In this document: one piece after another, positions 5,936 to 27,556 of the stretch | Layout of the letters: the number at the start of each line of letters is the position of its first letter | How positions within the stretch are numbered: the stretch's first letter is position 1 | IMG/VR virus record: IMGVR_UViG_3300006735_000162 | Location: 1 to 28,547 of that record | Length of the DNA: 28,547 nucleotides | Origin: a virus | Strand: one strand, 5' to 3' | Notes under the pieces: model-generated | Databases searched by the model: none | What the model was told of the DNA's origin: nothing | The model's input: the letters and a program-made list of their open reading frames with translations, nothing else | Made by a program: the position numbers and the translations under genes

Positions 5936-5937
5936 AT

Positions 5938-6548: not shown

Positions 6549-6857
6549 ATGAAAGGCAAACCCCCCACAAAAGAAGAGCAAGAACACATGGACTTAGTCC
6601 GTGGCATTGGGTGTATCGTCTGTTATAACAATGGTTATCCGTATGTTCCGGCAGAGATACATCACATTGTAGGAAAAGAAAAAAGAAATCACATGAGAGT
6701 ATTACCTCTCTGTGACATTCATCATAGAAACGGCAGTCACAAAAGACCAATAAGCAGACACCCCAACAAGAAAAGATTTGAAGAGGCTTATGGCACGGAA
6801 GAAGAACTACTCGAACAGGTAGAGCATTTACTTAAAGAGCCAAGAGAACTACCATGA
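6549..6857 (+). CDS. HNH-type nuclease, Ref/DUF968-like
   Basis: A 102-residue protein with the compact zinc/HNH layout of the P1 Ref and DUF968 families: GCIVC (C22, C25), AEIHHIVG (H38, H39), LPLCDIHHRNG (C55, H58, H59), then FEEAYGTEEELLEQV. Ref is a RecA-dependent nuclease that helps cut displaced strands, and DUF968 members occur in recombination operons at the place where a resolvase might be. This fits the neighbouring genes. The ATG has no clear ribosome site; the preceding 42 bp gap (6507-6548) is pyrimidine-rich and could hold a promoter, though I cannot define one. The stop overlaps a tiny frame at 6854. Confidence 0.85.
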   Translation: MKGKPPTKEEQEHMDLVRGIGCIVCYNNGYPYVPAEIHHIVGKEKRNHMRVLPLCDIHHRNGSHKRPISRHPNKKRFEEAYGTEEELLEQVEHLLKEPRELP

Positions 6858-6913
6858 GAAAAGGTTTTACTAGTAAATATTTTCTCGCAGCGAAACGAGA
6901 TGGAAAAAAATGA
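6854..6913 (+). CDS. Possible 19-residue peptide
   Basis: A short frame begins in an ATGA overlap with the HNH nuclease stop and encodes a very basic 19-residue peptide (MRKGFTSKYFLAAKRDGKK) ending 16 bp before the next gene. It spans the repeat copy at 6867 and a weak TCTCG/CGAGA hairpin (6883-6900). The ATGA junction is typical of this operon, but the ribosome site is poor and the size is minimal. It may equally be untranslated leader of the next gene. Confidence 0.22.
   Translation: MRKGFTSKYFLAAKRDGKK
6867..6886. repeat. Copy of a 20-bp dispersed repeat TTACNRGTAAATATTTTCTC
   Basis: TTACTAGTAAATATTTTCTC here matches 761-780 (TTACCGGTAAATATTTTCTC) at 18 of 20 positions. A third copy, 7703-7720, shares the first 17 bases with the 761 copy. 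Each has a palindromic left part (TTAC..GTAA) followed by AAATATTTT. Copies sit in the primase gene, before the resolvase-like gene and in the convergent gap. It could be a protein-binding site; the function is unknown. Confidence 0.45.
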
Positions 6914-6929
6914 TGGTAAGTTTTAAGGT

Positions 6930-7283
6930 ATGAAAACACAATCTGCAAAAGCAAAAGGAAGGAAACTACAGAAGTGGGTTGTAGAAAAGTTGATAGAGAT
7001 ATTGAAACTAGACCCTGAGGATATAGAGTCTAGACCTATGGGAAGCCAAGGGGAAGATGTGATAATGGGTAAGCAATCAAGAGAGAAGTTTCCCTTTAGT
7101 ATTGAGTGTAAAAACCAAGAGGCTCTGAACATTTGGAAAGCTTACGAACAAGCTGAGGAGAATTGTAAAGGCTATGAGCCTATAGTTGTAATCAAAAGAA
7201 ACAAGACTAAACCTTTGTTGGTTATTGACGCTGAAAAGTTTATTAGATTTATAGGTATATTAGTTGAGGAGGAGGAAGAGTAA
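6930..7283 (+). CDS. PD-(D/E)XK endonuclease, Holliday-junction-resolvase-like
   Basis: A 117-residue protein with the pattern of small archaeal-Hjc-like and phage resolvases: a helical N-terminus (KGRKLQKWVVEKL), GSQGEDVIM (acidic residue D43), FSIECKNQ (E59, K61) and a following helix with conserved Gln (Q74). These are the metal-binding D, E-x-K and downstream positions of the PD-(D/E)XK fold. It likely cuts branched DNA made during replication and recombination, so packaging can proceed. AAGG lies very close to the ATG. The product ends in a run of glutamates, and its 3' end supplies GAGGAGG for the next gene. Confidence 0.75.
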   Translation: MKTQSAKAKGRKLQKWVVEKLIEILKLDPEDIESRPMGSQGEDVIMGKQSREKFPFSIECKNQEALNIWKAYEQAEENCKGYEPIVVIKRNKTKPLLVIDAEKFIRFIGILVEEEEE

Positions 7284-7630
7284 TGTCTATGTTGGTAGAA
7301 CAATTACAAGAAGAGTTGAAAGAACGGAAGAAGGCTTGGTGGGAATGGCATAAGAAAAACCCTCAGGTATGGGAGAAGTTTGAAGAGTACACCTTACAAG
7401 CGATAGCCTCAGGGAGAAAGAACTATTCTCAATGGGCAATCATCAATCGTATAAGGTGGAACGCTGAGGTCGAAACAAAAGGTGGGGACTTCAAGATAAG
7501 CAATGATTACATATCTTTCTACGCTAGACTCTTTCATGTTAGGTATCCACAGTATGAAGGCTTCTTCAGAACTAAACCATTCAAAGAAGAAAAGCTAATC
7601 GAAAGATTAGTTGTTGCTGAAATATACTAG
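7283..7630 (+). CDS. Conserved phage protein of unknown function
   Basis: A 115-residue protein with the pattern NPQVWEKFEEYTLQAIASGR ... IINRIRWNAEVETKGGDFKI ... YARLFHVRYPQYEGFFRTK. I recognise this pattern from many unrelated phages, where it often lies next to a resolvase or HNH gene, but I know of no assigned function. It starts in a TAATG overlap behind GAGGAGG and is the last gene of the rightward operon. Confidence 0.82.
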   Translation: MSMLVEQLQEELKERKKAWWEWHKKNPQVWEKFEEYTLQAIASGRKNYSQWAIINRIRWNAEVETKGGDFKISNDYISFYARLFHVRYPQYEGFFRTKPFKEEKLIERLVVAEIY

Positions 7631-7699
7631 CCTGAAAAAATTTGATTCGCAGGTGGGACGCTGTGTCCTAAAAAACTTTCAGACCCTAGCTAGAGAAAG

Positions 7700-7753: not shown

Positions 7754-10700
7754 CTATTGCAATCCTAAATATGTTTCTTGTTGCCTTCTCATATCAGGAA
7801 TATACTGCAACAGTTGATTACGTCTCTCCTCTAGACTTCTAAGTGCTACTCTTTTTTGTTCAGGGTCTAGGGTTTCGCTACGATAAACTCCTTTTACTTG
7901 GTCTGCTATTCTCTTCAAGCCTCTGTCTATTCTTAATACTTGTTCCCTTGTTTGTAAGTATCCTTGGTTGTTATTTGCGTAAGCTTGATACTCGTCTACT
8001 CTGCCTTCTTTGACAAGCTTGTTCATAGTTGCTATCACTTTGTTGCTCTCTTCTCTCATTTCGTAATACTGTTGTTGCAAACCACCACCCAAAGGACTGC
8101 CAAAGAAACGTTTTAAGAGGGGTAATTGGTCTACCCTAGGTCTTATGTAGTCTCTACCGGTAAGACCCTTTAGAACTGTGTCTACGAGGCTCAGACCATA
8201 GCCACCGAGGGTACCTAAATATCCATTCAACGTATACTCTATTTTCATTGGACTTATGTTGAACGCCTCTCCAACAATCTTAGCTAACTCATTAGTCGTC
8301 TCTCTATATTGTTTTCCGTCCTCAATAGATTGCTCCATGTATGGAGGCACAATAGGACTTCCGGTAAAGCTACTACGATTGTAAACAAAAGCTTCCATGA
8401 ATGGTTTCAATACTTGGAAGTCAAGAGGGTTGAACTTTGCAGTATCTAGAAATGCTCTGCCCAAAGACTCTCCCGTTTCTCCGACACTTGCTTGTCCGGA
8501 TACTAAGTCCATAGTCCTTTCAGGTATTACTTTAAACATGACACCAATCTCAAAAGGAATAGGAAGCTTGAGAGGAGGAAGGTCTTTACCTGTGAAAATC
8601 AACCAATTGTTATCTCTCTCTTCTCTTCGTCTTGCTCTGTATTCATCTGTATCTCCAACCATTAAGTAATACAAAGCCGTAGCAAAAGTAAGCAACGCTC
8701 CATTTGCTACAAAACTTTTGATGACTCTGCTTTGTAATTCAGGGTCCTGACGAATACTAGCGTCAAATTCTTTTGCTGAGTATTGACCTGTGGCAGACCT
8801 ATAAAGAACATCAAGACCTTGTATCCTTGCGTTCATAAAAGGTATGGCAGTCGTCACAATTCTAAATATAGGATTGGCTCCTCTTCTTGAGAAGTTAATT
8901 ATTTCTTTGGCTTGATAAGCTGCCTCTGCTACATCTCCGGTTTCTTGCAAGACTTTTAGATATACAGCTTTTCTTGTTGCTCCGTCTGACTTATATGTTT
9001 GTTGTCCTAACCAATCCCAAAGTTTTACAGTAGCGTCAACAGGATTATATGACCCATTCTTACCTAAGCCTTGCAGTCTATATTGTTTCTTTAAAAAAGA
9101 TGAAATACTCATTGCGTCATTTGAATAATCATATCCACCTAACACACCAAACCTTTCTAGCTCAGTCATGTCAGAAGCAAAACCTTTGGCTGTATCCAAC
9201 ACAGGTATAAAGTTTGCACCACTTGTGACAAATGCTGATAACGTATCTCTAAACATATTGACCATCATAAATCCGGGGTCTCTTGTGACAGTCTCACGAA
9301 GTATAGAAGCCGGTACTGCTAAAGCTTTTAATAAAAATCCATCATCAGTCACACCTAAATTATTTAAACCTTCAAGGTATGGACCAAGCTCTGCGTCTAC
9401 TTCTAAAAATCTTCTTATCCCTTCTACATGAACAGGTATAACTTCTTTACCTATTCTGCCTCTGACTTCATCAGGTCTAATAAATCTACCTCTACCACTC
9501 AATACAAAGTTTCTAGCTAGTTTAGATAAGCCATCGTTCTTCATTCCGGCTGTAAGAATTGCAAGTTGATTTCTTAATATGGCATCTAAAAAAGGAATGT
9601 CTATATCTTTCTTACTACCTTTAAGTTCTATACCCAATGGATTACCTGTAAGCAATCCAGAGCCTATACGTGGAGCAGCCATATCTAAACTCTGATTTTC
9701 CATTTCTCTATAGAAAGGAAAGTGGTCTGCGTTTTCTCTCCAGATTTGTGCAGTACCTCTAGTTTCTATAAGCTCTCCTTCTTTTGCACGTGAGTTATAT
9801 ATTTCAACTGCTTTAAGAAGTGCCTCTCTGTTTCCAGATTTAGCTACATCAGTAAAGCCAACTTTATTCAGAGCAACCCTAAACTCATTGTCACTTCTTT
9901 CTTCCTGAAGTATACCGGTATCTACTCCATAGTTTATTGTGTACTCATTAAACTTTTGATAGTCGTCAAATACTTTTTCAATCCATTTATACTCCTGACC
10001 TATTTGCAATCCATCTTGTATTTCTTGGTCAGACAAAGGTATCTCTATAAGTCTTTCCTCTGTAATTGTTCCGTCCTTTTGCTGAACTTTAATTTTATCT
10101 TTTACTAATCTTCTACCTCTTCTAGCTATAAAATAAGCTTTGGCTAAAGACTCAAAGTCTATGCCGTACTCTGCAGAGTTTTGATAAATCGGAGCAAATA
10201 TATTTATTAAATTTAATTCAGAGTTTGTAAGTGTGGAAGTCAGACCATCTTTTAAGGTCACAGGTCCATGATTCATCATGGCAGATAAAACACCTCTAGC
10301 ATTATCTATAAATCTTAAAGCTTGAATTGCTCCGGTAGAAGCACGTCTTTCTAATTCAAGCACTTGACTAGAGTCACCGGCTAAAATCTTTTGACCGGTT
10401 AATAACATTTGTTTGTTATCTATAAGTTCTTGTCTAAATCTATTTATAAAAGAACGAACAGACTCTGCAGCATTTGTGACACTATCTAATGCGTCATAAA
10501 AACCACCTCCTAATGCAGGTTTGCTTCTGCCTCCTGTTTTGTCTACAACATTTTTATACTGTGAAGGTATAGTACCTGTGCCTCTCATGTATGGGTCCTC
10601 AGGTAATATATTCTCAGGCTTTAATCCATTCCTTACTTCTAGTGCAGTACGTATAGCTAGTCCACTAGCATTAGGATTTATTAAAGGCACGGCTCCGGCT

Positions 10701-13700
10701 GTATAATTTTCTGCTTCTGCCTTTGCAAAAGCTACAGCCTCTGCGTCTGCAAGTTCATCTTTGGTAGGTTTATTAGTAGTAGTTTGTGGATTAAAAGCCG
10801 AGTAAGGCATGGCAAAATTTCTACTTCTGCCTTGAGTCGGAACGCTAACTCCTAGTTCTTTTTGGAAACCTTGGAAGGCTCTAACGGCAGGGAGGTAGAG
10901 ATTACTGAGGAGGGCTCTCCGTATATCGGGTGCGTTGAAGGTAGAGGTGTAATCCCTAAGGTTTTCAATACCTCCTCTTGTTCCTGTTCTGTCATCTCTT
11001 GTTGGTCCGTAGCTGACGAGTTCTGATTTTTGTCCATAAGTATTTATATTATATCCTGAATTAGCAAACAAATCATTTAAGAAAGTCATGTATGTTTGAT
11101 ACATCTCTTTTGAATATGGCTCACCATTGAATTGTTTTTTGTCTGTGAAAGTCAAAGCATTGCCTGATGACTGTAAGACAAACTCTCCTATATCTCCGTT
11201 AGGGTCGCTTCTTTGTATTCTTTCTTGGATAGATTTTATTTCATCAACAGTAAAGCCTTCATTATTAGGCTTTGTTAATACAGCAGCTTGTCTCTTAGCA
11301 CCTTGTGCTGTAGGTGTAGTTATTAAAGTAGAGTCTAAATATAAAGCGTCAGTTAAAAACTGTGCAACTCCTCTAAGTGTTGCGTCACTTGCATTAGGCA
11401 TAGATAAATTAAATCCCGGAGTCAAATATCCACCATTGTATGTTCCTGCATTAAGAGTTATTGAGTGAGGTATCTTTAAAAATTTAAGAAACTTTAATTG
11501 ATTGCCTTCTGTTATTGAACGAAAAACAGTATTGAAATATTCTATTTTTTTTCTATAAGGAATAGATTTAGACTCAGACCAAACACCACGTATCTCAGTA
11601 CCGGGCATGATACCTACTTCAATTACAGGTGACATTTCTGCGATAGCTTCTTGATAGTTTCTTTGTGTCACACTTCCATATGTGCCTTTAACATTTTGAT
11701 ATGCAATGTTTTGTGGCGAGTTAATCATTCTATCTGTTAATGGAGTAGCAGTATCAAACTTACCTTCTCTTTGCATTTCTTGTATTTCAGATATTTGTTC
11801 TTGTGCTGCTGCTTCTGCTGAGGCATAGCTACCTTCGTTAGTAGGATTAGTTCCTCCTTCATATCTTTGTAATCCCCACAACATAGCTTGGATTTCTGAT
11901 GGCTCTTGATATTTTTTACGTACTCCATTGACGTTATAAACTTCTGTACTTAACAACCTCATTAAATCATTTTGAAATTGATACTCGATAGCAGTAGGAC
12001 TCTCTTGATTTTTCTCTGGTTTGTTTGGGTCTATCATTCCAAACTGCCTTCTCATATGAATGTCGTTAACTGTAAACGGAGTAAACCTACCCTGACTTGC
12101 TTCAAATATTTGATTAGCATAAAAAGCTGTCTTAGCTCCTGTATCTTTATTCTGAAATAAACCTGTCTTATAAAACTCTTGTATTTGTTTTAGTCGAGTT
12201 GGATTTTTCATACCAACATTTTTTTTTGCTATAGCATTTATAAATCTTTTAGGACTTTTAATAGGGTCTATCTGCCTAGCAATTATCATTGTATTTAAAG
12301 TATCTTGATAATTTTTTTCAGGAGTTTGTTGTGCAGATGTTATCCCAAAGACAGCACTAAACTCTGTCATGTTTGCGTCACCAATTAACAAAGGAACTTT
12401 CTGTGCCCATCTTGTATACCATAAATGGTCATAACCCATACGAGCAGCTTCAGCTACCTTCTTCTTTAATTCTTTATATGAAGGTATAGGTAAAAACTTT
12501 TTAGACTGTGGAGCAAACTGTTTAAATATCGCTCTCATTTCTGCAGAAGATATATCTCCTTTCTGAACTAAAGTATTCTCAAGCTCTTCAAATATAGCTG
12601 AACGATTTATTTCATCTTCGCTCAAGACCTCTCTCATTTGTGGGTCAACATCTTGTCCGGATAAAATATCTTGTGCTGTAGGTCTACCCTGAGTCCCTCC
12701 TTCTTCAAGTTCTTCTAACTCAACTGCAGGTTGTAAAAGTCTAGACTGATTACTTGCTGTCATTCGCAAGTTTCTTTTCACGCCTCTTTCTCTACTGCCT
12801 ATTTGTCCTGACGCAATCCTTTCTAATAAAACTGTAGGACTGCCAAACTCAGAAGCATTTATTGAAAATAAAAACTCTTGTAAAAAATTAAGTATTCTTT
12901 GGATTAAACTTCTTGGTTTACCAATAACTCCTTTAGGGTTATTTCTATAATATCGAAATAATTCTGCTACAAGTTCTTCCTCAAAACCTCTAGCTGTTAT
13001 ACCACCGGGTTGTCCTAGTCCATATGATTTAGCCATTTCATTTTGTATATCTTGAGACAAAGCTTTTTTTGCGTATCGTACAAGATTTAAAAATTCATCT
13101 TCAGTTATTAAATCCAATTGCATCATAGCGTGTATAGCTTCGTGGTCTATTCTGCCACTCAAAACGTCTATTAACTCTGCTTCAGATAGTTGATTATTAG
13201 GGTCAATACTTTCTAGCTTTAATAAAATAGTATTCAAAGCTTTGTCATATAGACCAACAGCTTCTTTATCAATCAAGCTCATATTCTCAGTACGATTTGG
13301 GTCAGCAATATAGATAAGTTTGCCATTGCCATCACGTTTTATATTTTGTGAACTAGCTAGAAAGTTTGTAATTCTAATTGCTACGTCTTTAAGACCTAAT
13401 TTATTTAATCTACCTTGCAATTCTTTTGCAAGATTAGGCATAGACTCATTTGTAATAGGTGGAGGCAATGCAGGTATATTGAATTGCTCTTCAGTCATAC
13501 CAAGGTTAGCTATTTGTTCAGCAGTTAAAACAGTAGATATTCTAGCTTTGTAATCTTCTACAGTTTCTCCTTCTTTCCTAGAAGCCTTAGACATTTCATC
13601 TGTTTTAAATTGACTGTTGCCTAATGTTTTGCCTTTTACTTTTTTTAGTCTGCCACTATTTATTAAATCTTCTTTAAACTGTCTTATATTTTGTTGACTC

Positions 13701-16060
13701 TTTTTAATATTTTGATTATCAAAAAATGTTTTTATATCATTTTCAGTTATAGCTTGACCTCTAGCTAAACCAAACAGCTCGTAAAAAGAATTCATTTGTT
13801 GTGCTGTATAAGTTCTAGGAGTAAGTAAAGGTAATTTAGTTTTTACATCTAGCCTAGGCATACTATATATACGACTTAACAAGACCATCTTCTGTCCTTT
13901 GTTCATCTTGTTATAGTTTTTTTCGCCTGTAAGTTGTTCTGCAAAATATTGAAACTCTTTGCTGTTTATTTTTGCTTCAAGGTTTCTACTTTCTAATGCT
14001 TCATATATTGCTTGTCTACTTGTATCTTCAAATCTATTAGGAGAAAAATTATATCTTTGTATACTGGCTCCTCTTGGATTTAATCCGGACGCTACCCTAT
14101 CTCCTTTCCTTTCATTTCTTCTGCCGGTTGGTAAATATGCTCCTTCTTTTTCAGAATACTTAAAGATGATGTTCGCTTTTTCCATCATCAATTGATTGAA
14201 GTCATCAGGCTTTAGAATTTTTTTAGCTTCTTGATAAGTGTAAAAATTCTTACGAGGCAATCCAACTTGTTCAGCTCTGTCTTGCAAAAGTTGTACCAAA
14301 CTTTTTTGTTCGTCTGTTTGCTTGTCAACAGTAATTTGTTTCAAAGGAGATATATCTAAAGCTCCTTCCGTACTGTCTAATTCACCCGGTCTATCTAGCT
14401 GTTTAAATCTTTGGTCTGGCTGACCACTTTTAGTAAGTCTTGTTTTACCTTCTCTTCTATCTTTTAATCTTTTAGCTTTTAGTCTTTCAGCTTGTTTATT
14501 TAATTTTTCTAATTTTGCAGCTTGTTTTTGTCTAGCCTCACTTATCCTTGAGTCCATTACAGACAGCGTTCTAACATCTATTACATTAAACAAAGGCGAT
14601 AAAACTCTTTTGCCTAAACTTTTTATAGAGCCACTTTCTTTTAGACCTGCAATATCTAATACATTATCAATTGCATCATTTACAAATTTTGTTCTATTTT
14701 TCTTTTCTTGTTCTACAGCAGATTGTGCAGCTTCATTTATTGTAGCTATAGGGTCAAAGTCAAATTTTTGAACACGCTGTCCCTCTTCATCTAAAAGTGG
14801 ATTGCCCTGAGCATCTATTTCAAATCCGGCAGCAACTTCAACTTTGTGTGTACTATATATCTTTCCTGTATCTTCACCTATAACTAATACACTTCCATCA
14901 GTTTGCTCTTCAAGTTTTAATTGCTCAATAACTTGTAATTCTTTTTTTTCTTCTGGCTCTATAGTTTCTTCATATTCTACAGCTAAATCTTCTTCACGAA
15001 TTATTGCAGGACCTGTAGCCTGTAGCTCTTCATCATCTTGTTTTCTTTCTTCAAAAATTTCTTTTTCGCCACTTTCTTCAACAGCTTGTTTCTCTAAGTC
15101 AAGAGTATATTTATTAGCGACAGGTCGTCTACCTGTAAAACCTCTAACTAATAAGTCAGCTATTGCTCCTGTACCACCACCTACAGTAAAGTCATCAAAC
15201 ATACTGTCCCCAATAGGTATCTCGTCACTATACAATCCACGAGCTACAGCATCTTGTGCAATACTTGCCATAGTTTCTTGAACAGCTTCTACAGTACCTG
15301 TGCCTAATGCTGACCTAATACGTGCTGCTACATCTAAAACTTCGCCATCACTTTTAGTAATCTTTCTTAAAAGTCGGTCAGGTGCAAACAATTCTGTAAG
15401 ACCTATAACACCACCGGCAGTTTCTGCAGCAAATTCTTGAAATGGACTAACCTCTTCTCCTAGCTGTCTAGCTTGTTCTATCCTGTCTCCTTGTTCTGAT
15501 ATACCCAAAGGCACAGCTAATGAGGCACTAGCAATCGTAGGTCCTCTTTGGACAGCTCTTATCATTTTATCAATTTTTTGTATCTCAGAAAGCTCAGTTG
15601 CTTTTGCTCTTAGATTGCCTAGCTTTCTTAGTTTTTCTGTAGTATTTAATACTTTAGCTGCACCAAATCCCGGAACAAAGAAAGAAGCAAAACTACCAAG
15701 ACCTTGTCCTAGTTTAGTAGTGTACAAATCTTCATAGCCTTCTTCTGTGGGAAGAAGAGTTTCATTAAGGTATCTTTGCATACCTCTAAGTCCATCACCA
15801 ATAGCACTATCATTACCACTATCAAAGAAGTTTACTAATCCTTCTGCACCTCCAAGAAATCCTCCGGCTAATCCTTTAGCAACTCCTTTACTAAACTCAC
15901 TAACCCTACCACCAATAGTAGGGTCTACCTCTTCTTTATATGGAGTATAGTAATCAGGATATTGTTCTGACAAAAAGTTTTGTAAACCAATGACATATTC
16001 TCTAGAAGGATTATCTTCTATCTCTATATATTTGCCATCTGGTAAATTAAATCTTTGCAT
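7754..16060 (-). CDS. Giant virion (ejection/polyvalent-type) protein, 2,768 residues
   Basis: By far the largest gene here. The first 60 residues (FNLPDGKYIEIEDNPSREYV) resemble the N-terminal tag of large phage ejected proteins. Residues about 60-300 are glycine/alanine-rich and hydrophobic, like membrane-inserting ejection proteins. Residues 973-977 are HEAIH, with EELVAELFRYY downstream, the pattern of a zincin-type metallopeptidase. About 2240-2430 (LRETVTRDPGFMMVNMFRDT; ATRKAVYLKVLQETGDVAEA; AIPFMNARIQGLDV) resembles LPD38-type domains of large polyvalent proteins. Such proteins are packed in the capsid and enter the cell with the DNA, carrying enzyme domains that protect the DNA or alter the host. 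It overlaps the next gene by one base. A 120-bp GC-rich patch near 10,860-10,980 interrupts its AT-rich codon use. Confidence 0.8.
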   Translation of the reverse strand: MQRFNLPDGKYIEIEDNPSREYVIGLQNFLSEQYPDYYTPYKEEVDPTIGGRVSEFSKGVAKGLAGGFLGGAEGLVNFFDSGNDSAIGDGLRGMQRYLNETLLPTEEGYEDLYTTKLGQGLGSFASFFVPGFGAAKVLNTTEKLRKLGNLRAKATELSEIQKIDKMIRAVQRGPTIASASLAVPLGISEQGDRIEQARQLGEEVSPFQEFAAETAGGVIGLTELFAPDRLLRKITKSDGEVLDVAARIRSALGTGTVEAVQETMASIAQDAVARGLYSDEIPIGDSMFDDFTVGGGTGAIADLLVRGFTGRRPVANKYTLDLEKQAVEESGEKEIFEERKQDDEELQATGPAIIREEDLAVEYEETIEPEEKKELQVIEQLKLEEQTDGSVLVIGEDTGKIYSTHKVEVAAGFEIDAQGNPLLDEEGQRVQKFDFDPIATINEAAQSAVEQEKKNRTKFVNDAIDNVLDIAGLKESGSIKSLGKRVLSPLFNVIDVRTLSVMDSRISEARQKQAAKLEKLNKQAERLKAKRLKDRREGKTRLTKSGQPDQRFKQLDRPGELDSTEGALDISPLKQITVDKQTDEQKSLVQLLQDRAEQVGLPRKNFYTYQEAKKILKPDDFNQLMMEKANIIFKYSEKEGAYLPTGRRNERKGDRVASGLNPRGASIQRYNFSPNRFEDTSRQAIYEALESRNLEAKINSKEFQYFAEQLTGEKNYNKMNKGQKMVLLSRIYSMPRLDVKTKLPLLTPRTYTAQQMNSFYELFGLARGQAITENDIKTFFDNQNIKKSQQNIRQFKEDLINSGRLKKVKGKTLGNSQFKTDEMSKASRKEGETVEDYKARISTVLTAEQIANLGMTEEQFNIPALPPPITNESMPNLAKELQGRLNKLGLKDVAIRITNFLASSQNIKRDGNGKLIYIADPNRTENMSLIDKEAVGLYDKALNTILLKLESIDPNNQLSEAELIDVLSGRIDHEAIHAMMQLDLITEDEFLNLVRYAKKALSQDIQNEMAKSYGLGQPGGITARGFEEELVAELFRYYRNNPKGVIGKPRSLIQRILNFLQEFLFSINASEFGSPTVLLERIASGQIGSRERGVKRNLRMTASNQSRLLQPAVELEELEEGGTQGRPTAQDILSGQDVDPQMREVLSEDEINRSAIFEELENTLVQKGDISSAEMRAIFKQFAPQSKKFLPIPSYKELKKKVAEAARMGYDHLWYTRWAQKVPLLIGDANMTEFSAVFGITSAQQTPEKNYQDTLNTMIIARQIDPIKSPKRFINAIAKKNVGMKNPTRLKQIQEFYKTGLFQNKDTGAKTAFYANQIFEASQGRFTPFTVNDIHMRRQFGMIDPNKPEKNQESPTAIEYQFQNDLMRLLSTEVYNVNGVRKKYQEPSEIQAMLWGLQRYEGGTNPTNEGSYASAEAAAQEQISEIQEMQREGKFDTATPLTDRMINSPQNIAYQNVKGTYGSVTQRNYQEAIAEMSPVIEVGIMPGTEIRGVWSESKSIPYRKKIEYFNTVFRSITEGNQLKFLKFLKIPHSITLNAGTYNGGYLTPGFNLSMPNASDATLRGVAQFLTDALYLDSTLITTPTAQGAKRQAAVLTKPNNEGFTVDEIKSIQERIQRSDPNGDIGEFVLQSSGNALTFTDKKQFNGEPYSKEMYQTYMTFLNDLFANSGYNINTYGQKSELVSYGPTRDDRTGTRGGIENLRDYTSTFNAPDIRRALLSNLYLPAVRAFQGFQKELGVSVPTQGRSRNFAMPYSAFNPQTTTNKPTKDELADAEAVAFAKAEAENYTAGAVPLINPNASGLAIRTALEVRNGLKPENILPEDPYMRGTGTIPSQYKNVVDKTGGRSKPALGGGFYDALDSVTNAAESVRSFINRFRQELIDNKQMLLTGQKILAGDSSQVLELERRASTGAIQALRFIDNARGVLSAMMNHGPVTLKDGLTSTLTNSELNLINIFAPIYQNSAEYGIDFESLAKAYFIARRGRRLVKDKIKVQQKDGTITEERLIEIPLSDQEIQDGLQIGQEYKWIEKVFDDYQKFNEYTINYGVDTGILQEERSDNEFRVALNKVGFTDVAKSGNREALLKAVEIYNSRAKEGELIETRGTAQIWRENADHFPFYREMENQSLDMAAPRIGSGLLTGNPLGIELKGSKKDIDIPFLDAILRNQLAILTAGMKNDGLSKLARNFVLSGRGRFIRPDEVRGRIGKEVIPVHVEGIRRFLEVDAELGPYLEGLNNLGVTDDGFLLKALAVPASILRETVTRDPGFMMVNMFRDTLSAFVTSGANFIPVLDTAKGFASDMTELERFGVLGGYDYSNDAMSISSFLKKQYRLQGLGKNGSYNPVDATVKLWDWLGQQTYKSDGATRKAVYLKVLQETGDVAEAAYQAKEIINFSRRGANPIFRIVTTAIPFMNARIQGLDVLYRSATGQYSAKEFDASIRQDPELQSRVIKSFVANGALLTFATALYYLMVGDTDEYRARRREERDNNWLIFTGKDLPPLKLPIPFEIGVMFKVIPERTMDLVSGQASVGETGESLGRAFLDTAKFNPLDFQVLKPFMEAFVYNRSSFTGSPIVPPYMEQSIEDGKQYRETTNELAKIVGEAFNISPMKIEYTLNGYLGTLGGYGLSLVDTVLKGLTGRDYIRPRVDQLPLLKRFFGSPLGGGLQQQYYEMREESNKVIATMNKLVKEGRVDEYQAYANNNQGYLQTREQVLRIDRGLKRIADQVKGVYRSETLDPEQKRVALRSLEERRNQLLQYIPDMRRQQETYLGLQ

Positions 16061-21025: not shown

Positions 21026-21224
21026 TTCCTTTAGACCCCATTAATAAAAACTGATGTCTTCGCATAGCCTTAGAAACTATCGCTGACTTCAATTCATCTA
21101 TCAAACCTATATCACTATGTATGTCTTGAATTATTTGCTCAATAGTTCTGCGTGTAATTAATTCATTATCCATTACATATTCAGGTGTTGGTATAGGTAA
21201 AGGTATGGAAGATTTATTAGCCAT
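21018..21224 (-). CDS. Small conserved virion-operon protein
   Basis: A 68-residue helical protein ending SKAMRRHQFLLMGSKGNV; the 'SKA..RwQFLLMG' ending is common in marine phages next to gp10-like tail genes. It is probably a structural or chaperone-like component. It starts in a one-base TAATG overlap with the gp10-like gene. Confidence 0.6.
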   Translation of the reverse strand: MANKSSIPLPIPTPEYVMDNELITRRTIEQIIQDIHSDIGLIDELKSAIVSKAMRRHQFLLMGSKGNV

Positions 21225-23077
21225 TATTTTTCTCCGTCAGCTCTTATATCTAATCTTAAATCACCAAGTCGCCAACCAAAGTCTCCTGATGTAGATTGTA
21301 TTTTAAGTGCAGTTTGTCTTGACCTTCCTCGTGTACTTACAAAAGTAGTAGATGGAGTTACGTTAGAAGTTGAAAGAGTAGCTAAATCTTCTAAAGGATA
21401 TTTTCTTCCTCTTAAAATAAAACTTACTGTGTCATTAGTACTGCTTGATTCTAAAAATTTTAAGTCTGGTATAACTTTTGAAATAAACATAAGCTGTTCT
21501 CCGGCAGGGTCTAAATCAAAATCTGCAGTTTCTACATATGATGTAAAGCCAGAGCCATCAGCTAAATTGCCATCTTCTTGATTATATAAATAATTAAGAT
21601 TTGTGTTGTCTAACTTACCTGCAGCTAAAGGAAAATCTAATGTAGGAGCTTGTGACCAAGCTGTTCTCGTATAACCATCTGCCGTTGTACCAACTGCCCA
21701 AGCATTTTCTAAATAATTATAAGAAACATATCTATCTATTTCGTTGCTACCTGAAGAAGGATAAAACCAAATTATTTCATTGTAAGCAGAATTGTTCGCT
21801 GCAAAAACTTTATATTTTTGTGACAGATTAAAGTCACTAAATACATAATCTAAAACTGTACATGGCAGTTTTCCTACACTACCTTCAGCTTTATAGAAAG
21901 CACCATCGTCCATAAAATATACTGCAGTTCCTATAGCTATACCTGCATTAGGTCCAATCATGCCTAAACCTGTAGCAACTTCATTAAAAGAGAAATAAAA
22001 AGGTGAGCCAACAAATCTCATAGAAACTACACTTGTATCGGTAAATACTAAAGTTTCTTGTCTAGTAGGTATGGCTCCAATAATCTGACTACCTGAAGAA
22101 AGTTTTACTCCACCGGCACTATTAGTTGCTTTAGGTGTCCAATCTAAAAAAGACTCAGAGTCTGACCATCTAACAAATAATGGGTCTACTACAGCAGAGC
22201 CTATAGGGTTAGCTCCAAAAGCAACACAATGCCTATCCACATCAGAAATCATTACTTGTAGTATTGCAGTAGGTATATCACTAGCACCCCCTAAAGAACT
22301 AGCAAGAACTGCACGAGTTGTAGTTCCATTGCTTTCGTCCCACAAATAAAGTGGACCACCTCTAGGTGCTGCTAAAGTATCTTCTCCAAAATTATCTATT
22401 GTCCAAATTCTTAATTGGCTGTTTAATGCAATTGGATTTGTACTACCAAAACCACCTGCACCCCATGCACCTGACCCCCAACCTGAGCCTGAAACAAATG
22501 TATCTAAACCACCGGTTATTTGATATGTACCAACAGTATTACTTCCACCTGACTGCCCTACATCATTTGCAGTAGCTGTTACTGTAGCTGTAATCGTATA
22601 TGTATTTGCAGTCGGTGTTGTTTGAATTTGATATTCTTTATTTAAAACTGCTGCTGTTATGTTTCCACCTAAACTTTGTGCACCACTAAAGGTAACAAAG
22701 TCTCCCGGATTAGCTCCATGGTTTGCATCTGTTACAGTAAGAGTGCTTGAGTTTTCTGTTGCTGCAAATGTGACATCTCCTGCAGCAGTTGTTTGACGTA
22801 AAGGAGTAATATCATTGTAAGCATTACCTTCTTTTACATAAAGCTTTTGATGTGTTCCAAGAATTGTATAGTTTGTTAAACCCGTATCACTATAGTTATG
22901 TATTTTTCTGCAAGTTCCAATGAAAGTATTTGTACTGTTTTTTGTCCAGCCATTAATTTTTTCAGGAACGCCTTTGCTAAATCTTATTTTTTCTGAGTCA
23001 ACATAACCACCCTCTGCAGCATAGGCTGTAGACTCTTTATTTATTCCGGGTTTAAATTGAAACTTTACTAATGCCAT
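21224..23077 (-). CDS. Tail accessory / DNA stabilization protein, P22 gp10-like
   Basis: A 617-residue beta-rich protein. N-terminal KFQFKPGINKESTAYAAEGG and SEKIRFSKGVPEKINGW, mid-protein FGEDTLAAPRGGPLYLWDES, and repeats of VRWSDSESFLDWTP and YNYLENAWAVGTTADGYTRT are the marks of the P22 gp10-type tail (packaged-DNA stabilization) proteins of short-tailed phages, which plug the portal and support the tail needle. An insert of about 80 residues (105-185) looks like a separate Ig-like, Thr/Ala-rich domain. GAGGTAT lies before the ATG, at the end of the endolysin gene. Confidence 0.75.
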   Translation of the reverse strand: MALVKFQFKPGINKESTAYAAEGGYVDSEKIRFSKGVPEKINGWTKNSTNTFIGTCRKIHNYSDTGLTNYTILGTHQKLYVKEGNAYNDITPLRQTTAAGDVTFAATENSSTLTVTDANHGANPGDFVTFSGAQSLGGNITAAVLNKEYQIQTTPTANTYTITATVTATANDVGQSGGSNTVGTYQITGGLDTFVSGSGWGSGAWGAGGFGSTNPIALNSQLRIWTIDNFGEDTLAAPRGGPLYLWDESNGTTTRAVLASSLGGASDIPTAILQVMISDVDRHCVAFGANPIGSAVVDPLFVRWSDSESFLDWTPKATNSAGGVKLSSGSQIIGAIPTRQETLVFTDTSVVSMRFVGSPFYFSFNEVATGLGMIGPNAGIAIGTAVYFMDDGAFYKAEGSVGKLPCTVLDYVFSDFNLSQKYKVFAANNSAYNEIIWFYPSSGSNEIDRYVSYNYLENAWAVGTTADGYTRTAWSQAPTLDFPLAAGKLDNTNLNYLYNQEDGNLADGSGFTSYVETADFDLDPAGEQLMFISKVIPDLKFLESSSTNDTVSFILRGRKYPLEDLATLSTSNVTPSTTFVSTRGRSRQTALKIQSTSGDFGWRLGDLRLDIRADGEK

Positions 23078-23521
23078 TTATACCTCATGCCATTGCTCTC
23101 CTTGAAATAAAAGAGCTTCTGCTTCTCGCCTTCTTACTAATCCGTTAAGCACTTCTCCTCCTGCTTTATTCCATCTTTTAATTTGATATGGAACTTCTTC
23201 ATACATACCTTTATTTAAAACTTTAAGCATTGTAGAACTAGATAAATTTGTTGGTCCTAAGTTATATGTCCAACATACTAGTGCATCAAACTGACATTGT
23301 TCTAATTCTACATCTACTAAATCTTCTACATAGCTTTCAAATTCTTCAAGTTCTATTTCTAAAAATGCTTCTGCTTCTTCTTTAGATATTTCCATGCCTT
23401 CAAATACTTCTTTAGTATGACCCCAACCTATAGTCCAAACTCCAACACTATCTTGATATGCTGTAAGTTTTAAGCCTTCAAACTTTTTTATAAGGGCAAT
23501 ACCCTCTTTAGATATTTTCAT
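23078..23521 (-). CDS. Endolysin, GH24 lysozyme
   Basis: Cuts peptidoglycan glycan strands at the end of infection. The 147-residue product has the T4-lysozyme-family triad E15-x8-D24-x5-T30 in FEGLKLTAYQDSVGVWTIGW (starting at residue 14). Later it shows the conserved VCWTYNLGP and LVRRREAEALLF. The start at 23521 is chosen over 23581 because GAGGAGTAA lies just upstream and residues before it would be an overlap artefact of the Rz1-like gene. No signal peptide or SAR segment is obvious, so it needs a holin. The gene lies directly after the spanin pair. Confidence 0.92.
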   Translation of the reverse strand: MKISKEGIALIKKFEGLKLTAYQDSVGVWTIGWGHTKEVFEGMEISKEEAEAFLEIELEEFESYVEDLVDVELEQCQFDALVCWTYNLGPTNLSSSTMLKVLNKGMYEEVPYQIKRWNKAGGEVLNGLVRRREAEALLFQGEQWHEV

Positions 23522-23525
23522 TTTC

Positions 23526-23900
23526 TTACTCCTCATAGGTAGTGACTTTTCTATAGTAGACCACCACTTCTTTAAGTTCATTTATATACCTCTTTAGTTC
23601 TTGCATATTGTAAGACATCAATTCATAGTCAGGAATTGACATAGCTACAAAGACTATTCGACCTTCTTCTTTTTTAACTCTTTCCAAAAATTCATCTACA
23701 TTAAGTTCAGAAACTACAAACCAATATGGCTCATTGAGATTTATCTCTCTCGGCATAACCGGTTGAGCTATTGTTCTTTTTAAAGGTTTACTAATTATAT
23801 CTACTTGTTTAGGGATTAGACTGCAACTGTAAGCCGTCATCAAGACTATCGATGATACGACTATCTGCTTCAATACCATTAAATACTTCTTTAGTTCCAT
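23526..23900 (-). CDS. Outer-membrane spanin lipoprotein, Rz1-like
   Basis: A 124-residue protein with an N-terminal hydrophobic signal and lipobox TAYSC (C26), so the mature lipoprotein would anchor in the outer membrane. It overlaps the Rz-like gene by 92 bp in another frame, the classic Rz/Rz1 layout. It is longer than the usual Rz1 (about 40-60 mature residues) and its second half (after residue 65) looks like a helical/strand domain with no obvious proline-rich region. Together with the Rz-like partner it should fuse inner and outer membranes in the last step of lysis. GAGGG precedes the ATG. Confidence 0.72.
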   Translation of the reverse strand: MELKKYLMVLKQIVVSSIVLMTAYSCSLIPKQVDIISKPLKRTIAQPVMPREINLNEPYWFVVSELNVDEFLERVKKEEGRIVFVAMSIPDYELMSYNMQELKRYINELKEVVVYYRKVTTYEE

Positions 23901-24201
23901 TGTTCACCCTCTTTTCTATTAACCCCGGTTTAGCTGCTGCTAACTTGCTAAGATTATGTCGTTTAAAAATATCAAGATACCTATTCATTTCTTGTTGAAT
24001 CTCTTGATTTCTGGATTGTAGTTCTACTAATCCCCTTGTTTGCATTTCAAAATCTTGTTGCATACTTTCAATAGCTTCTTTTTGTTCTTGATTTCTTAAC
24101 TCATAAGCTTTGTTTAAAGATTGCAAAGAAGAATTTTGCCAATACAAAAATCCACATATAGAAATCAAAACTGCTATTACACCTAATAAAATTTTACTCA
24201 T
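23809..24201 (-). CDS. Inner-membrane spanin, Rz-like
   Basis: A 130-residue protein with an N-terminal membrane span (ILLGVIAVLISICGFLYW, residues 4-21), then a long coiled coil (about 25-85, rich in Gln and Glu), as expected for the type II inner-membrane spanin that spans the periplasm. It begins in an ATGA overlap with the FecR-domain gene and its tail overlaps the Rz1-like gene. This pair, with the endolysin, defines the lysis cassette into which the curli-like genes are inserted. Confidence 0.75.
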   Translation of the reverse strand: MSKILLGVIAVLISICGFLYWQNSSLQSLNKAYELRNQEQKEAIESMQQDFEMQTRGLVELQSRNQEIQQEMNRYLDIFKRHNLSKLAAAKPGLIEKRVNNGTKEVFNGIEADSRIIDSLDDGLQLQSNP

Positions 24202-25343
24202 TGACTTTGCCTTATTACAATTACAGAAGAGCCACCACCATTTACTTTAACTTGATTAGTGACACCATCTTGTTCTAAAACTACTAAGTAGCTTTCTCCA
24301 CTATCTATTTGTATTGATGTAGATGAAGCGACTGACCTTGTTAATTTTACTTCTTGTCCAGAAACTATTGTAGTTATTTGTGTTTTTTGGTCTTGCCCTA
24401 TAGTAGTGCCTTCTATATTTACTGCTGATATTGTTTGAGTTAATTCTTTCTCATTATCCAAAACATCAAGTTCAGTAATTATATCTAACAAATCTTCTAA
24501 AAAATTTACATTCAAAGCATCATAGTCTAATTCTGTAAATTCTAGTTCGTCTTTATCTAGCGAGTCATCAGCTAAATAATCTACATCTAGTTCATCAAAA
24601 TCTAATAAATTATTCTCTTGTTTTTTTTCAGTACTTTCTTCTATATCCTTATCTTCTTCGGGTGGAGCAATCAATAACATATTGTTTATAAAATCCAAAG
24701 ACAAATCTAAAATAACCGGATTACTTGGTGGAGCTTCATAAACTCTAGTAGTTGTAGCCTGATAAGGTTTATTAAGTATTACTGTACCCATTGCTGTTGT
24801 CACGGATATTTCACCTGATGGGTTGCCATCTTTGTCAGGTAATAATATAAACAAACTTTTTCCTGTATCTGGCTCTACTGTTATTGTAAAGTCTGTTCCT
24901 CTAATTCCTACTACTGCACTATTTGTTGTAAGCTTTATATTTTTTTTAGATATTTTATTAGTAAGACTTGAAGTAAATCTTGCTGTACCTTTTACAAAAT
25001 TTAAAGCTAATCTAGAATTATCTGGGTTTGCATCAAATACAAATTCATCTATGACTACCATTGAATGTTCAGTAATCCGAATACTTGTATCGTCTATAAA
25101 TCTAATACCCATACGACCTGCTTCTGTTTGTGCTTTGTCGTAAGACTGTATGCCAAAGTCTGTAATTACATCATAATCTTTGTCACGTTCTATTCTGGCA
25201 TATCCTGATACTTGTTCTACAGTTCCTATATCAACAGCTTGTGCTAGTGCCTTGGTCGTTTTGATTGACACAGAAAGTACCATTAGAGCCATTAGAAGTA
25301 ATCTTAAGCCAATCATTATCAAGTGTGCTTTGTTGTGTAACAT
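24198..25343 (-). CDS. Secreted FecR-domain protein with acidic repeat
   Basis: Up to 381 residues. A hydrophobic segment (LRLLLMALMVLSVSI) with a likely cut near ALAQA gives Sec export. About 38-190 is a FecR-type domain: GTVEQVSGYARIER, GIRFIDDTSIRITEHSMVVI, NSAVVGIRGTDFTITVEPDT and ISVTTAMGTVILN. FecR domains bind or signal at the envelope. Residues 235-300 are an Asp/Glu/Leu repeat (FDELDVDYLADDSLD, then FTELDYDALNVNFLEDLLD). The C-terminal 70 residues are beta-rich. The start is uncertain: 25343, 25316 or 25292 are possible ATGs, all overlapping the curlin-like gene by 62-113 bp, and none has a clear ribosome site. It likely acts with CsgG/CsgF and the curlin-like protein. Confidence 0.75.
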   Translation of the reverse strand: MLHNKAHLIMIGLRLLLMALMVLSVSIKTTKALAQAVDIGTVEQVSGYARIERDKDYDVITDFGIQSYDKAQTEAGRMGIRFIDDTSIRITEHSMVVIDEFVFDANPDNSRLALNFVKGTARFTSSLTNKISKKNIKLTTNSAVVGIRGTDFTITVEPDTGKSLFILLPDKDGNPSGEISVTTAMGTVILNKPYQATTTRVYEAPPSNPVILDLSLDFINNMLLIAPPEEDKDIEESTEKKQENNLLDFDELDVDYLADDSLDKDELEFTELDYDALNVNFLEDLLDIITELDVLDNEKELTQTISAVNIEGTTIGQDQKTQITTIVSGQEVKLTRSVASSTSIQIDSGESYLVVLEQDGVTNQVKVNGGGSSVIVIRQSQ

Positions 25344-25938
25344 TTATTGTTCTTGACCCTCCTGTATGAGTCAAATGAAAATATGCTCCTTGATACCCGT
25401 CACCATCAAATGTCACAGTATTATCAGACCCATCTATGTTCATATAGTTTGTAGCTAAGTCTTGGTCAATTGCAGATGTAATTGAATTGTTAGAGCCATT
25501 TATTGTCCAATCTAAATCTAATGTAGAAGCTTGTGCATTAGTCGCTTGATTAAAAGTAAAAGCATTTGATGACCCAGACACTTGTACATTTATATTAGAA
25601 CTGTCTGCACCATAAGTATTATTAGGGTCTGTCTGTATGGCAAATGTATTAGAGTCTCCGGTAAATTCAAAAAAGCCTGTATAACTATCAGCATATATAT
25701 CGCCTTTAAATATATTTGAATTACCTAGTTGGTTTACATCAAGTGTCATTGTTGCACCATCTAAATCTAATGGTGTCATAGTACCTGATACAGCAGTAGC
25801 ACCACCGATTAAGTTTCCAGACCCAAGCTGCTCAATATCTATATTTGCCGTAGCTCCTGCTTGGTCTATAGATATTTCATTGTCTGTAGCAAAAATATTT
25901 ATACTTAAAAAAATAATTACTGGTAAATACTTTTTCAT
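25231..25938 (-). CDS. Curlin-repeat-like secreted protein (candidate CsgA/CsgB-type subunit)
   Basis: A 235-residue protein with signal peptide MKKYLPVIIFLSINIFA, then a run of curlin-like units of about 20-30 residues, each with Gln/Asn-Gly-Asn patterns: ISIDQAGATANIDIEQLGSG, LDVNQLGNSNIF, FTGDSNTFAIQTD, NVQVSGSSNAFTFNQATN, TINGSNNSITS, INVTQQSTLDN. This is the spacing of the CsgA/CsgB amyloid repeat ('S.....G..N.....Q'), but degenerate. The C-terminus has two cysteines (TFCVNQNDQGTSTSC) that may pair. It is the natural substrate for the adjacent CsgG pore. GGAG precedes the ATG, and the ATGA junction couples it to CsgG. No nucleator/major-subunit distinction can be made from sequence. Confidence 0.7.
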   Translation of the reverse strand: MKKYLPVIIFLSINIFATDNEISIDQAGATANIDIEQLGSGNLIGGATAVSGTMTPLDLDGATMTLDVNQLGNSNIFKGDIYADSYTGFFEFTGDSNTFAIQTDPNNTYGADSSNINVQVSGSSNAFTFNQATNAQASTLDLDWTINGSNNSITSAIDQDLATNYMNIDGSDNTVTFDGDGYQGAYFHLTHTGGSRTINVTQQSTLDNDWLKITSNGSNGTFCVNQNDQGTSTSC

Positions 25939-26738
25939 TCTTTATAGCTCCAATATTGTTTTTCAATTCCTTTTTTGATTGTAGACAAAATAGCTTCTTC
26001 AATGGCTGCTTGTACAGCTATCGTTACGCTTTCATTTTCTACATCACCATTTTCTATTTCAATCAATTCGGTTTTATTTTCTATAAATCTAAAAGCGTCT
26101 TGATTAGTACCAACACTTAATATCGTTTTAGATACTGTGACTTCTATAAGAACTCTACCGGTCAAAACAGATACAGTTCTTAAAGACAGCGTGACAGTAT
26201 CTTGTCTATATTGTTTTGATAACCCTATGCCTAAAAGTCTAGCTCCACGACCTCCACTTCTTGTATTGGTTTCATAGCCGACTATAGCTCCTTCCATTAT
26301 AAGACCTGCAAAAACTAATGGTTTTAATTTTTGTGGGTCATCAAATGTTTCTCTGGTACTTCTTATTAGTTGTCTTTCTTTGGTTAGATTATCTAAACCT
26401 ATTCTTTCTACAACTTCAAAAAACTCTCCGTTAGATACAGCTTTTAAAGTCTTTATCAAAAGCACATATGGTGCTTGTGTGACTGCTGTGCTAAACGTTG
26501 CAAAATTACTATTACTTCTTCTTTGTCCTGTTTGGTCTGTAAAAGAAGTTGGGTATATAGCTACTATAGGTTTTTTACCTGCCGGTAAAATAGTTTCTAT
26601 TTCTTTATTGATAACTCCAACTCTTTCAGCATACTTTGAAATCTTTTGATTTTGTAAAGCATCATCATAAAAGACAGTACAGCTAGAAAGTAAAACTATT
26701 AAGAGGAAAAGTAATAACTGTTTGTTTGTTAGCTTCAT
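25935..26738 (-). CDS. csgG: Curli secretion channel lipoprotein CsgG
   Basis: A 267-residue outer-membrane pore-forming lipoprotein. Lipobox LLSSC (C20) follows an N-terminal signal. Alignment by eye with E. coli CsgG shows the same order of blocks: DQTGQ..., FSTAVTQAPYVLLIKTLKAV, LDNLTKERQLIRSTRETFDD, IMEGAIVGYETNTRSGGRGA then RLLGIGLSKQYRQDTVTLSL RTVSVLTG, VSKTILSVGTNQDAFRFIEN and SVTIAVQAAIEEAILSTIKK. Nine copies form a channel that passes unfolded curlin. In the constriction loop, the position of E. coli F56 (just before STAV) is kept, but N55 becomes T and Y51 becomes S. The ATG overlaps the CsgF gene by 56 bp with no ribosome site, so coupling is expected. Confidence 0.92.
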   Translation of the reverse strand: MKLTNKQLLLFLLIVLLSSCTVFYDDALQNQKISKYAERVGVINKEIETILPAGKKPIVAIYPTSFTDQTGQRRSNSNFATFSTAVTQAPYVLLIKTLKAVSNGEFFEVVERIGLDNLTKERQLIRSTRETFDDPQKLKPLVFAGLIMEGAIVGYETNTRSGGRGARLLGIGLSKQYRQDTVTLSLRTVSVLTGRVLIEVTVSKTILSVGTNQDAFRFIENKTELIEIENGDVENESVTIAVQAAIEEAILSTIKKGIEKQYWSYKE

Positions 26739-27225
26739 TAGTAACTGTCAAAATTATATTGGTTTCATCAACCTTATAGTCAATAGTATTCCCCTCAAGT
26801 TCTATTGTCCCGTTATCTTGTGCAGTTTCTCCAAACAACTTATCAACTAATTGTTGAGATAGTTTTGCATAAACTCTTGTTTCAAAGTTTCTTATAAATC
26901 TTGCAGTTGTAGTATTCTGTTCATCTCTTTCTGCTTGTTCTATTAAAGCCTCTATTTCTTCTTGCAATGTTTTATATCTAGTATGTTCTTGATTTTCTAT
27001 TGTCAAATAATGTTGAGATGTATTTATACCTGAAAAACTTGGCGACTTAAATTTAAAATTCATTTCATCTGCTAATGCTAAATTTACACATAAAGCTATA
27101 ACCATAAATAAACCTACATACATACAAATAATTAAAGCTACGTCTTTATCTCTTGCTTTCTTTCTAGCAGCTAGTTCTGCATTAGAAGGTCTGCCTCTTT
27201 TTCTTTTAATCTTTTCTTTGGTCAT
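26683..27225 (-). CDS. csgF: Curli assembly protein CsgF with long basic N-terminal extension
   Basis: A 180-residue protein. Residues 54-140 begin with DEMNFKFKSPSFSGIN, matching the E. coli CsgF N-terminus ('GTMTFQFRNPNFGGNP') that plugs the CsgG channel. The C-terminus (NTIDYKVDETNIILTVTNEA then NKQTVITFPL) matches the CsgF end. The signal segment is residues 29-52 (VALIICMYVGLFMVIALCVN LALA). Residues 1-28 add a highly basic, AT-hook-like stretch, KRKRGRPSNAELAARKKARD, not found in ordinary CsgF. The ATG at 27225 overlaps the upstream gene by 20 bp with weak AGAG before it; a start at 27117 (Met37) would shorten the export signal. CsgF and CsgG form the core pore unit. Confidence 0.85.
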   Translation of the reverse strand: MTKEKIKRKRGRPSNAELAARKKARDKDVALIICMYVGLFMVIALCVNLALADEMNFKFKSPSFSGINTSQHYLTIENQEHTRYKTLQEEIEALIEQAERDEQNTTTARFIRNFETRVYAKLSQQLVDKLFGETAQDNGTIELEGNTIDYKVDETNIILTVTNEANKQTVITFPLNSFTF

Positions 27226-27556
27226 CTCTATCTGCCTTTGCTATTTTATCGTTCTGTACTAGATTAGGTACACCTAACATAGTCTTAAGTAAAGTATCTT
27301 GTCTAATAATTTCATTATCTACACTTCTAACTCTGTCTATCAAAGCAATCAATATTCCATGTTGTGCTTCTAATTTAGCATCTAGCCTACCTTCCATAGC
27401 TTTTAATTGTTCATTTACTTTATCATCAACAACATCAATCTTAGATTCCATGCCATCTATAATTCTATTAATTAGTTTCCAAACAAATACACCTAGTCCT
27501 AATGCTGCAGCAACAGGAAATCCTAACTCAGTTATTAACTTTACAATATCGTCCAT
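27206..27556 (-). CDS. Holin-like protein: one N-terminal membrane span plus coiled coil
   Basis: A 116-residue protein with a single membrane span (about 10-28, LGFPVAAALGLGVFVWKLIN) followed by a long charged coiled coil (38-95). This is the layout of small phage membrane proteins of the BhlA/holin-like group and of some spanin-type helpers. It lies one gene before the pore proteins, in the lysis region, and starts in a TAATG overlap with the nuclease gene. It is a good holin candidate, but topology alone cannot prove pore formation. Confidence 0.5.
   Translation of the reverse strand: MDDIVKLITELGFPVAAALGLGVFVWKLINRIIDGMESKIDVVDDKVNEQLKAMEGRLDAKLEAQHGILIALIDRVRSVDNEIIRQDTLLKTMLGVPNLVQNDKIAKADRDDQRKD

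Follow-up and report, generated by a model that had tools for sequence, protein, structure and literature searches.

A curli-type secretion module with a curlin-like candidate substrate recurs beside lysis genes in a group of phages

Why would a phage carry curli-type secretion genes next to the genes that open its host cell? The question is raised by the window analyzed here, a 28,547-base record of a marine virus (IMG/VR record IMGVR_UViG_3300006735_000162, covered in full), in which four overlapping genes encode homologs of the curli proteins CsgF and CsgG, a curlin-like protein termed CUR, and a FecR-domain protein. Genes for spanins and a lysozyme follow, and all genes under discussion lie on the minus strand. 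An initial annotation of this DNA had given the place and overlaps of the four genes correctly. A module of this kind was already known; new here are its recurrent lysis neighborhood, the constancy of its substrate and FecR protein, and the rereading of a small upstream membrane gene, HOL, as a member of the module. With respect to function, we favor, at about even confidence, export late in infection that gives the host cell a coat before it lyses.

We assessed the identity of the module proteins with hidden Markov model searches, which placed CsgF, CsgG and FecR above the Pfam cut-offs, as the initial annotation had called them. CsgG, the predicted outer-membrane pore lipoprotein (25935..26738), matched PF03783 with an expectation value (E) of 4.8e-45, and 4.0e-47 in a second run, and a family profile of 13 phage CsgG sequences reached solved CsgG chains at E 3.9e-65. 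In that alignment, the segment of the solved chain that we take to be the pore constriction (eyelet) differs from the phage consensus. The CsgF homolog (26683..27225), with a signal sequence discernible by eye, matched PF10614 at E 1.1e-14, with residues 41-174 aligned to positions 6-132 of the 132-position profile, and phrog_35372 at E 4.6e-37. A PDB sequence search with CsgF reached no CsgF chain and returned chance-level rows only. CsgF proteins of the window clade also carry an unusual basic N-terminal extension ahead of the signal sequence, with a weak AT-hook match (E 0.042).

The FecR-domain protein (24198..25343) matched PF04773 at E 5.6e-9, and this domain was recovered in 13 of 13 family members, the window protein included. 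It appears by eye to be secreted and to carry an acidic linker and a curlin-like C-terminal motif. Classical FecR proteins have an N-terminal cytoplasmic anti-sigma part. That part is not recognized in the window protein, because the N-terminus reads by eye as a signal sequence and PF04773 was the sole Pfam domain found at E 0.1. At the other end, a terminal [IV]x[IV]xQ was present in all 93 unique proteins over 340 amino acids, and Q.G..N lay within the last 45 residues in 76 of these 93; the QxGxxN part of the tail is not visible in Pelagibacter phage HTVC008M and Methylophilales phage Melnitz. The motif makes the tail reminiscent of a curlin repeat, and a profile of the last 48 FecR residues gave no match to CUR. 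Structure prediction of the FecR protein reached a predicted local distance difference test (pLDDT) score of 44, and a PDB sequence search with it gave no match.

CUR (25231..25938) is the likely export substrate, a putatively secreted, curlin-like beta-solenoid on which four lines agree, with an identity less firm than those of CsgF, CsgG and FecR. First, 4 of 14 CUR family members, the window protein among them, matched Curlin_rpt at E 0.1, the best at E 8.6e-6. Second, CUR contains six G-x-x-N-x-[FIVLY] motifs, a number reached by none of 20000 shuffles, for a motif picked after viewing the sequence; GxxN alone is weak, with 6 occurrences against 2.62 expected and 163 of 5000 shuffles reaching 6. 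Third, its AlphaFold2 model is a beta-solenoid (pLDDT 78.6) with four BFVD matches under E 0.001, three of them phage proteins named 'Curlin associated' (best E 3.7e-7) and one unnamed. Fourth, in 3 of 5 bacterial loci, a small set, open reading frames (ORFs) next to csgF/csgG matched the CUR profile at E 2e-5 to 2e-6. A PDB sequence search with CUR returned chance-level rows only.

To determine how constant this module is, we assembled 130 phage csgG loci, forming 65 clusters at 90% CsgG identity, and counted each gene only in loci with enough sequence on the relevant side. CsgF lay upstream of csgG in 115 of 115 loci, CUR was kept in 118 of 118 and FecR in 110 of 110. Loci were chosen by CsgG similarity (46 distinct loci plus the best 80 of 585) and by similarity to the stabilization protein encoded beside the lysozyme gene (best 80 of 594). 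Genes were labeled with profiles seeded with the window proteins and two from HTVC008M and iterated on the loci, so that distant forms can be missed; the profiles of CUR and of CUR2 overlap, and either label was accepted. Bacterial loci (L068-L071, L073, L085-L088, L091) were dropped from the conservation and lysis counts, as were duplicates and re-fetched pieces (L001, L072, L075, L077, L079, L083, L089, L161, L162, L179, L235). Compared with the relative L013 over non-overlapping parts, the ratio of nonsynonymous to synonymous substitution rates (dN/dS) was 0.095 for CsgF, 0.077 for CsgG, 0.092 for CUR and 0.047 for FecR. Purifying selection acts on all four genes, and so constant a substrate makes a bare pore less likely.

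HOL (27206..27556), encoding 116 amino acids, is by eye one N-terminal membrane segment followed by a coiled coil. One or two copies (two in 27 loci) immediately precede csgF in 98 of the 101 phage loci that are informative, the exceptions being L029, L030 and L031. Its best PHROG family was phrog_18771, of unknown function (E 2.2e-16). The initial annotation had called this gene holin-like, which holds by eye and found no backing in the family searches: PHROG holins were reached just at E 0.13-0.2, and 15 members matched no Pfam or NCBIfam holin at E up to 0.5. The same 15 members gave no kinase match in Pfam either. In HTVC008M and Melnitz, too, HOL comes before csgF, with no neighbor annotated as a lysis gene, and we rejected the idea that it is simply the holin of the window's lysis cassette; holin activity as such is possible. 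Because of this association, in 98 of 101 loci and in both of these phages, HOL travels with the module and is a module member, holin-like by eye only. For the same reason the block lies upstream of the lysis cassette, rather than inside it after the cassette's holin as had been proposed. In L031 (6829-9486), whose CsgG is 84% like that of the window, FecR is followed by several small lysine-rich proteins and not by lysis genes.

In the window, the lysis genes directly after the FecR gene belong to PHROG lysis families, in agreement with the initial annotation: a Rz-like inner-membrane spanin (23809..24201; phrog_739, E 2e-15), a Rz1-like outer-membrane spanin with a lipobox by eye (23526..23900; phrog_812, E 5.9e-11) and an endolysin of the phage lysozyme type (23078..23581; PF00959, E 2.6e-47; phrog_7, E 2.1e-60). 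The stabilization protein gene (21224-23077) abuts the lysozyme gene without a gap. Gene starts are given as the first possible codon, and later starts are possible. From 27556 to 23078, HOL, CsgF, CsgG, CUR, FecR, Rz, Rz1 and lysozyme form an unbroken chain of overlapping genes, with overlaps in these coordinates of 20 nucleotides (HOL/CsgF), 56 (CsgF/CsgG), 4 (CsgG/CUR), 113 (CUR/FecR) and 4 (FecR/Rz). Because of these overlaps, and because the minus strand has no terminator-like site listed between 27556 and 23078, the genes from HOL to lysozyme probably share one operon. A promoter scan was uninformative (30 found against 31.3 expected from shuffles). In a close 58-kb relative, the module genes lie amid structural genes, all on one strand. 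Between FecR and Rz, a lipoprotein-like ORF (by eye) of about 60 amino acids occurs at L010:12541-12717, L022:8358-8534 and in 17 other loci; the FecR-Rz gap is 175 nucleotides in close relatives with this small ORF, and a 4-nucleotide overlap in the window and seven loci without it.

We then compared the module with known systems. The initial annotation had set the joining of a substrate and a FecR protein to CsgF and CsgG apart from the csgG/csgF-type genes of some marine phages. We rejected the four genes as a new combination: Wittmers et al. 2022 (PMC9599517) describe nine podovirus genomes carrying CsgF, CsgG, curlin and FecR in conserved order, and myophages with the same, and the unit is present in HTVC008M and annotated in Melnitz. 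The window shares with that pelagiphage module the gene order and the one or two preceding genes, and CsgE, CsgC and CsgD are unreported in that main text. It differs in lacking the adenylate cyclase and second curlin that frequently follow FecR there, and in having HOL where PMC9599517 places one or two 'histidine kinase' genes. From the position and the one or two copies, HOL is probably the gene so labeled, and the label sits poorly with the kinase search above. The words spanin, endolysin, lysozyme and holin do not occur in the main text of that paper, figures and supplements aside, and a literature search by titles and abstracts recognized no further work on phage curli modules among the papers listed.

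HTVC008M and Melnitz resemble the window in having HOL (two copies), CsgF, CsgG, CUR and FecR; the window CsgG is 51% and 45% identical to theirs, respectively, over 82-84%. In contrast to the window, these are 141-147 kb phages with a second curlin and a CHASE2-cyclase after the module and without any annotated lysis gene next to it. In HTVC008M, the second curlin gene (L002:8471-9796) combines a PA14 domain with Curlin_rpt (E 5.2e-8), an arrangement that might, by analogy, be that of a surface adhesin. The account of Melnitz in PMC9004378 states that csgA and csgB are lacking, whereas the Melnitz GenBank record names curlin repeat proteins in the curli region. Two labels in the literature, 'histidine kinase' and 'lacks csgA/csgB', are called into question by our results.

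Bacterial loci hold parts of this arrangement. In curli operons of Alphaproteobacteria, CsgF lies beside CsgG as in the phages and curlin-like ORFs occur in 3 of 5 loci, whereas neither HOL nor FecR was found in any of these five loci of about 16 kb. Of 30 further bacterial loci, 3 had FecR beside a CHASE2 gene, with the phage order of FecR then cyclase in two, and none of these 30 short loci (the first five 2.7-4.1 kb long) had csg genes. Because bacterial FecR stands beside CHASE2 without csg genes, the phage module appears to combine two components of bacterial origin.

To assess whether the lysis neighborhood is a peculiarity of the window, we counted as a lysis-type gene Rz, Rz1, lysozyme or HOL3, a 160-amino-acid, three-transmembrane (3TM) holin-like gene. 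A lysis-type gene started within 1 kb after the module, on the same strand, in 73 of the 85 loci whose sequence runs on for at least 1.2 kb beyond it; two more had one within 3 kb upstream, and ten had neither. With one locus per 90% CsgG cluster, the figures were 34, 2 and 8 of 44. HTVC008M, Melnitz, L057 and L058 fall outside the 85, having less than 1.2 kb after the module. Six csgG loci had come only through the stabilization protein and bias the set towards lysis neighbors; without them the counts were 69, 2 and 10 of 81, and 30, 2 and 8 of 40 per cluster. The lysis neighborhood is therefore kept in most relatives, in line with the initial annotation.

The neighboring genes are of two kinds, 48 of the 73 loci having the Rz kind and 25 the HOL3 kind, and HOL3 was found together with Rz or Rz1 in none of 45 HOL3 loci. 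HOL3 is tentatively a holin and was counted as a lysis gene on a weak match alone, to the annotated 'Holin of 3TMs' of phage DSL-LC04 (E 2.5e-4); a Pfam search of two members gave no match. At a limit of 2.5 kb and with HOL3 left out, 53 of 67 loci and 23 of 36 clusters had a lysis gene after the module. A CsgG tree requires at least 9 changes between Rz and HOL3 among 34 tips, or at least 7 among the 30 that did not come from the stabilization-protein scan, with the sister pairs L154/L148 (99) and L046/L184 (95) as examples; these counts do not distinguish a swap of the cassette from a move of the module. The lysis/none state changed at least 8 times among 46 tips, the states of HTVC008M and Melnitz being set to 'none' by hand from their annotation. 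The tree was built by a quick method, with rows under 200 amino acids dropped, L085-L088 and L091 as outgroup, and 24 of 67 inner branches left open.

Taken together, these results are consistent with the following sequence of events. A type VIII (curli) secretion module would have been acquired before the window lineage arose and would be transcribed in one stretch with the late structural genes and the lysis genes. In the host outer membrane, CsgG and CsgF would form a pore through which CUR, and perhaps also the FecR protein with its curlin-like tail, would exit late in infection. Exported CUR would coat the infected cell, and the coat might keep sister cells or debris close to the bursting cell, or fend off other phages. 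Late expression is suggested by position alone, and export, fibre assembly and benefit are steps that we infer. The main text of PMC9599517 describes curli modules as widespread in marine phages, with hosts that lack curli, and the functions proposed in PMC9599517, PMC7029224 and PMC9004378 are there hypotheses only.

Several observations weigh against this late-coat reading. CsgE, which the initial annotation had already listed as missing, was found at E up to 1 in none of nine related records (HTVC008M and Melnitz whole, the other seven possibly fragments), with a model that did detect its target in E. coli. No clumping of Melnitz cultures was seen, according to the account in PMC9004378. 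The remaining points concern CUR. On its own, the window protein scored 14.3 bits against the Curlin_rpt cut-off of 20.7 (E 0.041), so that the curlin call stood for the family and fell short for the single protein. Foldseek of the model against the PDB gave no match under E 0.001; the solved CsgA fibril ranked only 11th (Z 11.9, rmsd, the root-mean-square deviation, 8.8 over 110 residues), and the best solved matches were other beta-helices (Z up to 17.7). By eye, the CUR N-terminus shows no clear targeting stretch ahead of the first repeat.

A first alternative is that the place beside the lysis genes is a permissive late accessory slot, so that position says nothing about function; we consider this a doubtful but serious contender. 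Gene traffic at the site fits it. A cyclase follows the module in 31 of 67 loci, is absent in the window, where Rz comes after FecR, and changes state at least 7 times on the quick CsgG tree; small ORFs come and go between FecR or the adenylate cyclase and Rz; the module stands after the stabilization protein in L092, L220 and L229, and lysozyme lies upstream of the module in eight loci (L115, L119, L122, L134, L139, L146, L147, L159). L174 has other secreted-looking proteins in the slot before Rz without csgG (4309-7637), a 372-amino-acid Asn/Thr-rich repeat protein and a 745-amino-acid protein, neither of which matched Pfam over cut-off. What this alternative leaves unaccounted for is that the module keeps lysis-type neighbors in most loci despite repeated changes of cassette type.

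A second alternative, which we hold to be improbable, is a direct part for the module in lysis: the CsgG/CsgF pore, gated or plugged by CUR or FecR, would weaken the outer membrane or time its opening together with spanins, holin and endolysin. A lysis role for the Melnitz pore was proposed earlier in PMC9004378, and both the neighborhood counts and the repeated Rz/Rz1-HOL3 switches beside a constant module speak for it. Yet the window already has spanins and a lysozyme, a bare pore has no need of a conserved substrate and FecR, and ten of the 85 loci have no recognized lysis gene on either side, with none annotated beside the module of HTVC008M or Melnitz. Lysis genes also do without the module. 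In a scan anchored on the stabilization protein, a lysis-type gene lay upstream in 34 of 50 loci with 1.5 kb upstream, and among the 16 with 6.5 kb upstream, csgG was present within 7.5 kb in eight. The other eight comprise L174, L189, L191 and L192 with Rz, Rz1 and lysozyme, L164 and L225 with lysozyme without Rz, and L211 and L235 with neither; L235 comes from the same record as L040, which carries the module elsewhere. The neighbor in L164 is a PF11351 holin.

A further reading is an envelope-spanning lysis-phase device, in which CsgG/CsgF would be gated or plugged by CUR, with HOL in the inner membrane, and which would be kept beside whichever cassette is present, be it spanins or a 3TM holin; it might set how or when the outer membrane opens, or hold the burst cell together. 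We judge it to have only a slim chance; the frequent lysis neighbors of the module in this phage group allow for a lysis-phase role. Finally, CsgG/CsgF might be a pore that takes up nutrients or cofactors, and FecR an iron regulator, as suggested in PMC9599517 (the pore alone in PMC7029224, which reports csgF/csgG in pelagimyophages and proposes 'sibling capture'). This uptake reading agrees with the FecR domain and with the lack of a CsgE gate in nine records, but is very unlikely, the FecR protein having a signal sequence by eye and no recognized anti-sigma part, and the conserved curlin-like substrate being left unexplained. The lysis link, the constant substrate and HOL narrow the question of function and provide a definite set of genes: HOL, CsgF, CsgG, CUR and FecR.

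The portal protein of the close 58-kb relative is 41-44% identical to those of HTVC027P, HTVC023P, 023Pt_psg01 and DSL-LC04, and also 43% to those of Planktothrix and Synechococcus phages, and the stabilization protein is 33-35% identical to HTVC023P types and 42% to DSL-LC04. By these similarities the window lineage appears to be kin of HTVC023P-type phages, and no less of DSL-LC04 and some cyanophages. The window also encodes, at 7754-16060, a 2768-amino-acid protein whose sole recognized domain is LPD38, near the C-terminus.

Phage modules also surface in bacterial data. A scan of genome_contigs gave five loci, all with the phage gene order, which we took as phage contigs in bacterial bins. 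Phage-order contigs (L055-L059, L089, L090) sit in bins named Maricaulis, Neomarinimicrobiota, Synechococcus, Flavobacteriaceae and Pelagibacter; such contigs in genome bins are probably phage contigs in metagenome-assembled genomes and can lead searches for bacterial curli astray. Of 385 alphaproteobacterial genomes, 7 had CsgF, six above cut-off and G193 below it, and one of the six, G011, has it on phage-like contigs only. A search of nine virus records with phrog_2 gave no match. Among phage records, OR851715.1, a 1,499-base entry under the name Salmonella phage S.Kent 1-2-1, codes for a relative of CsgG and may be a piece of host chromosome.

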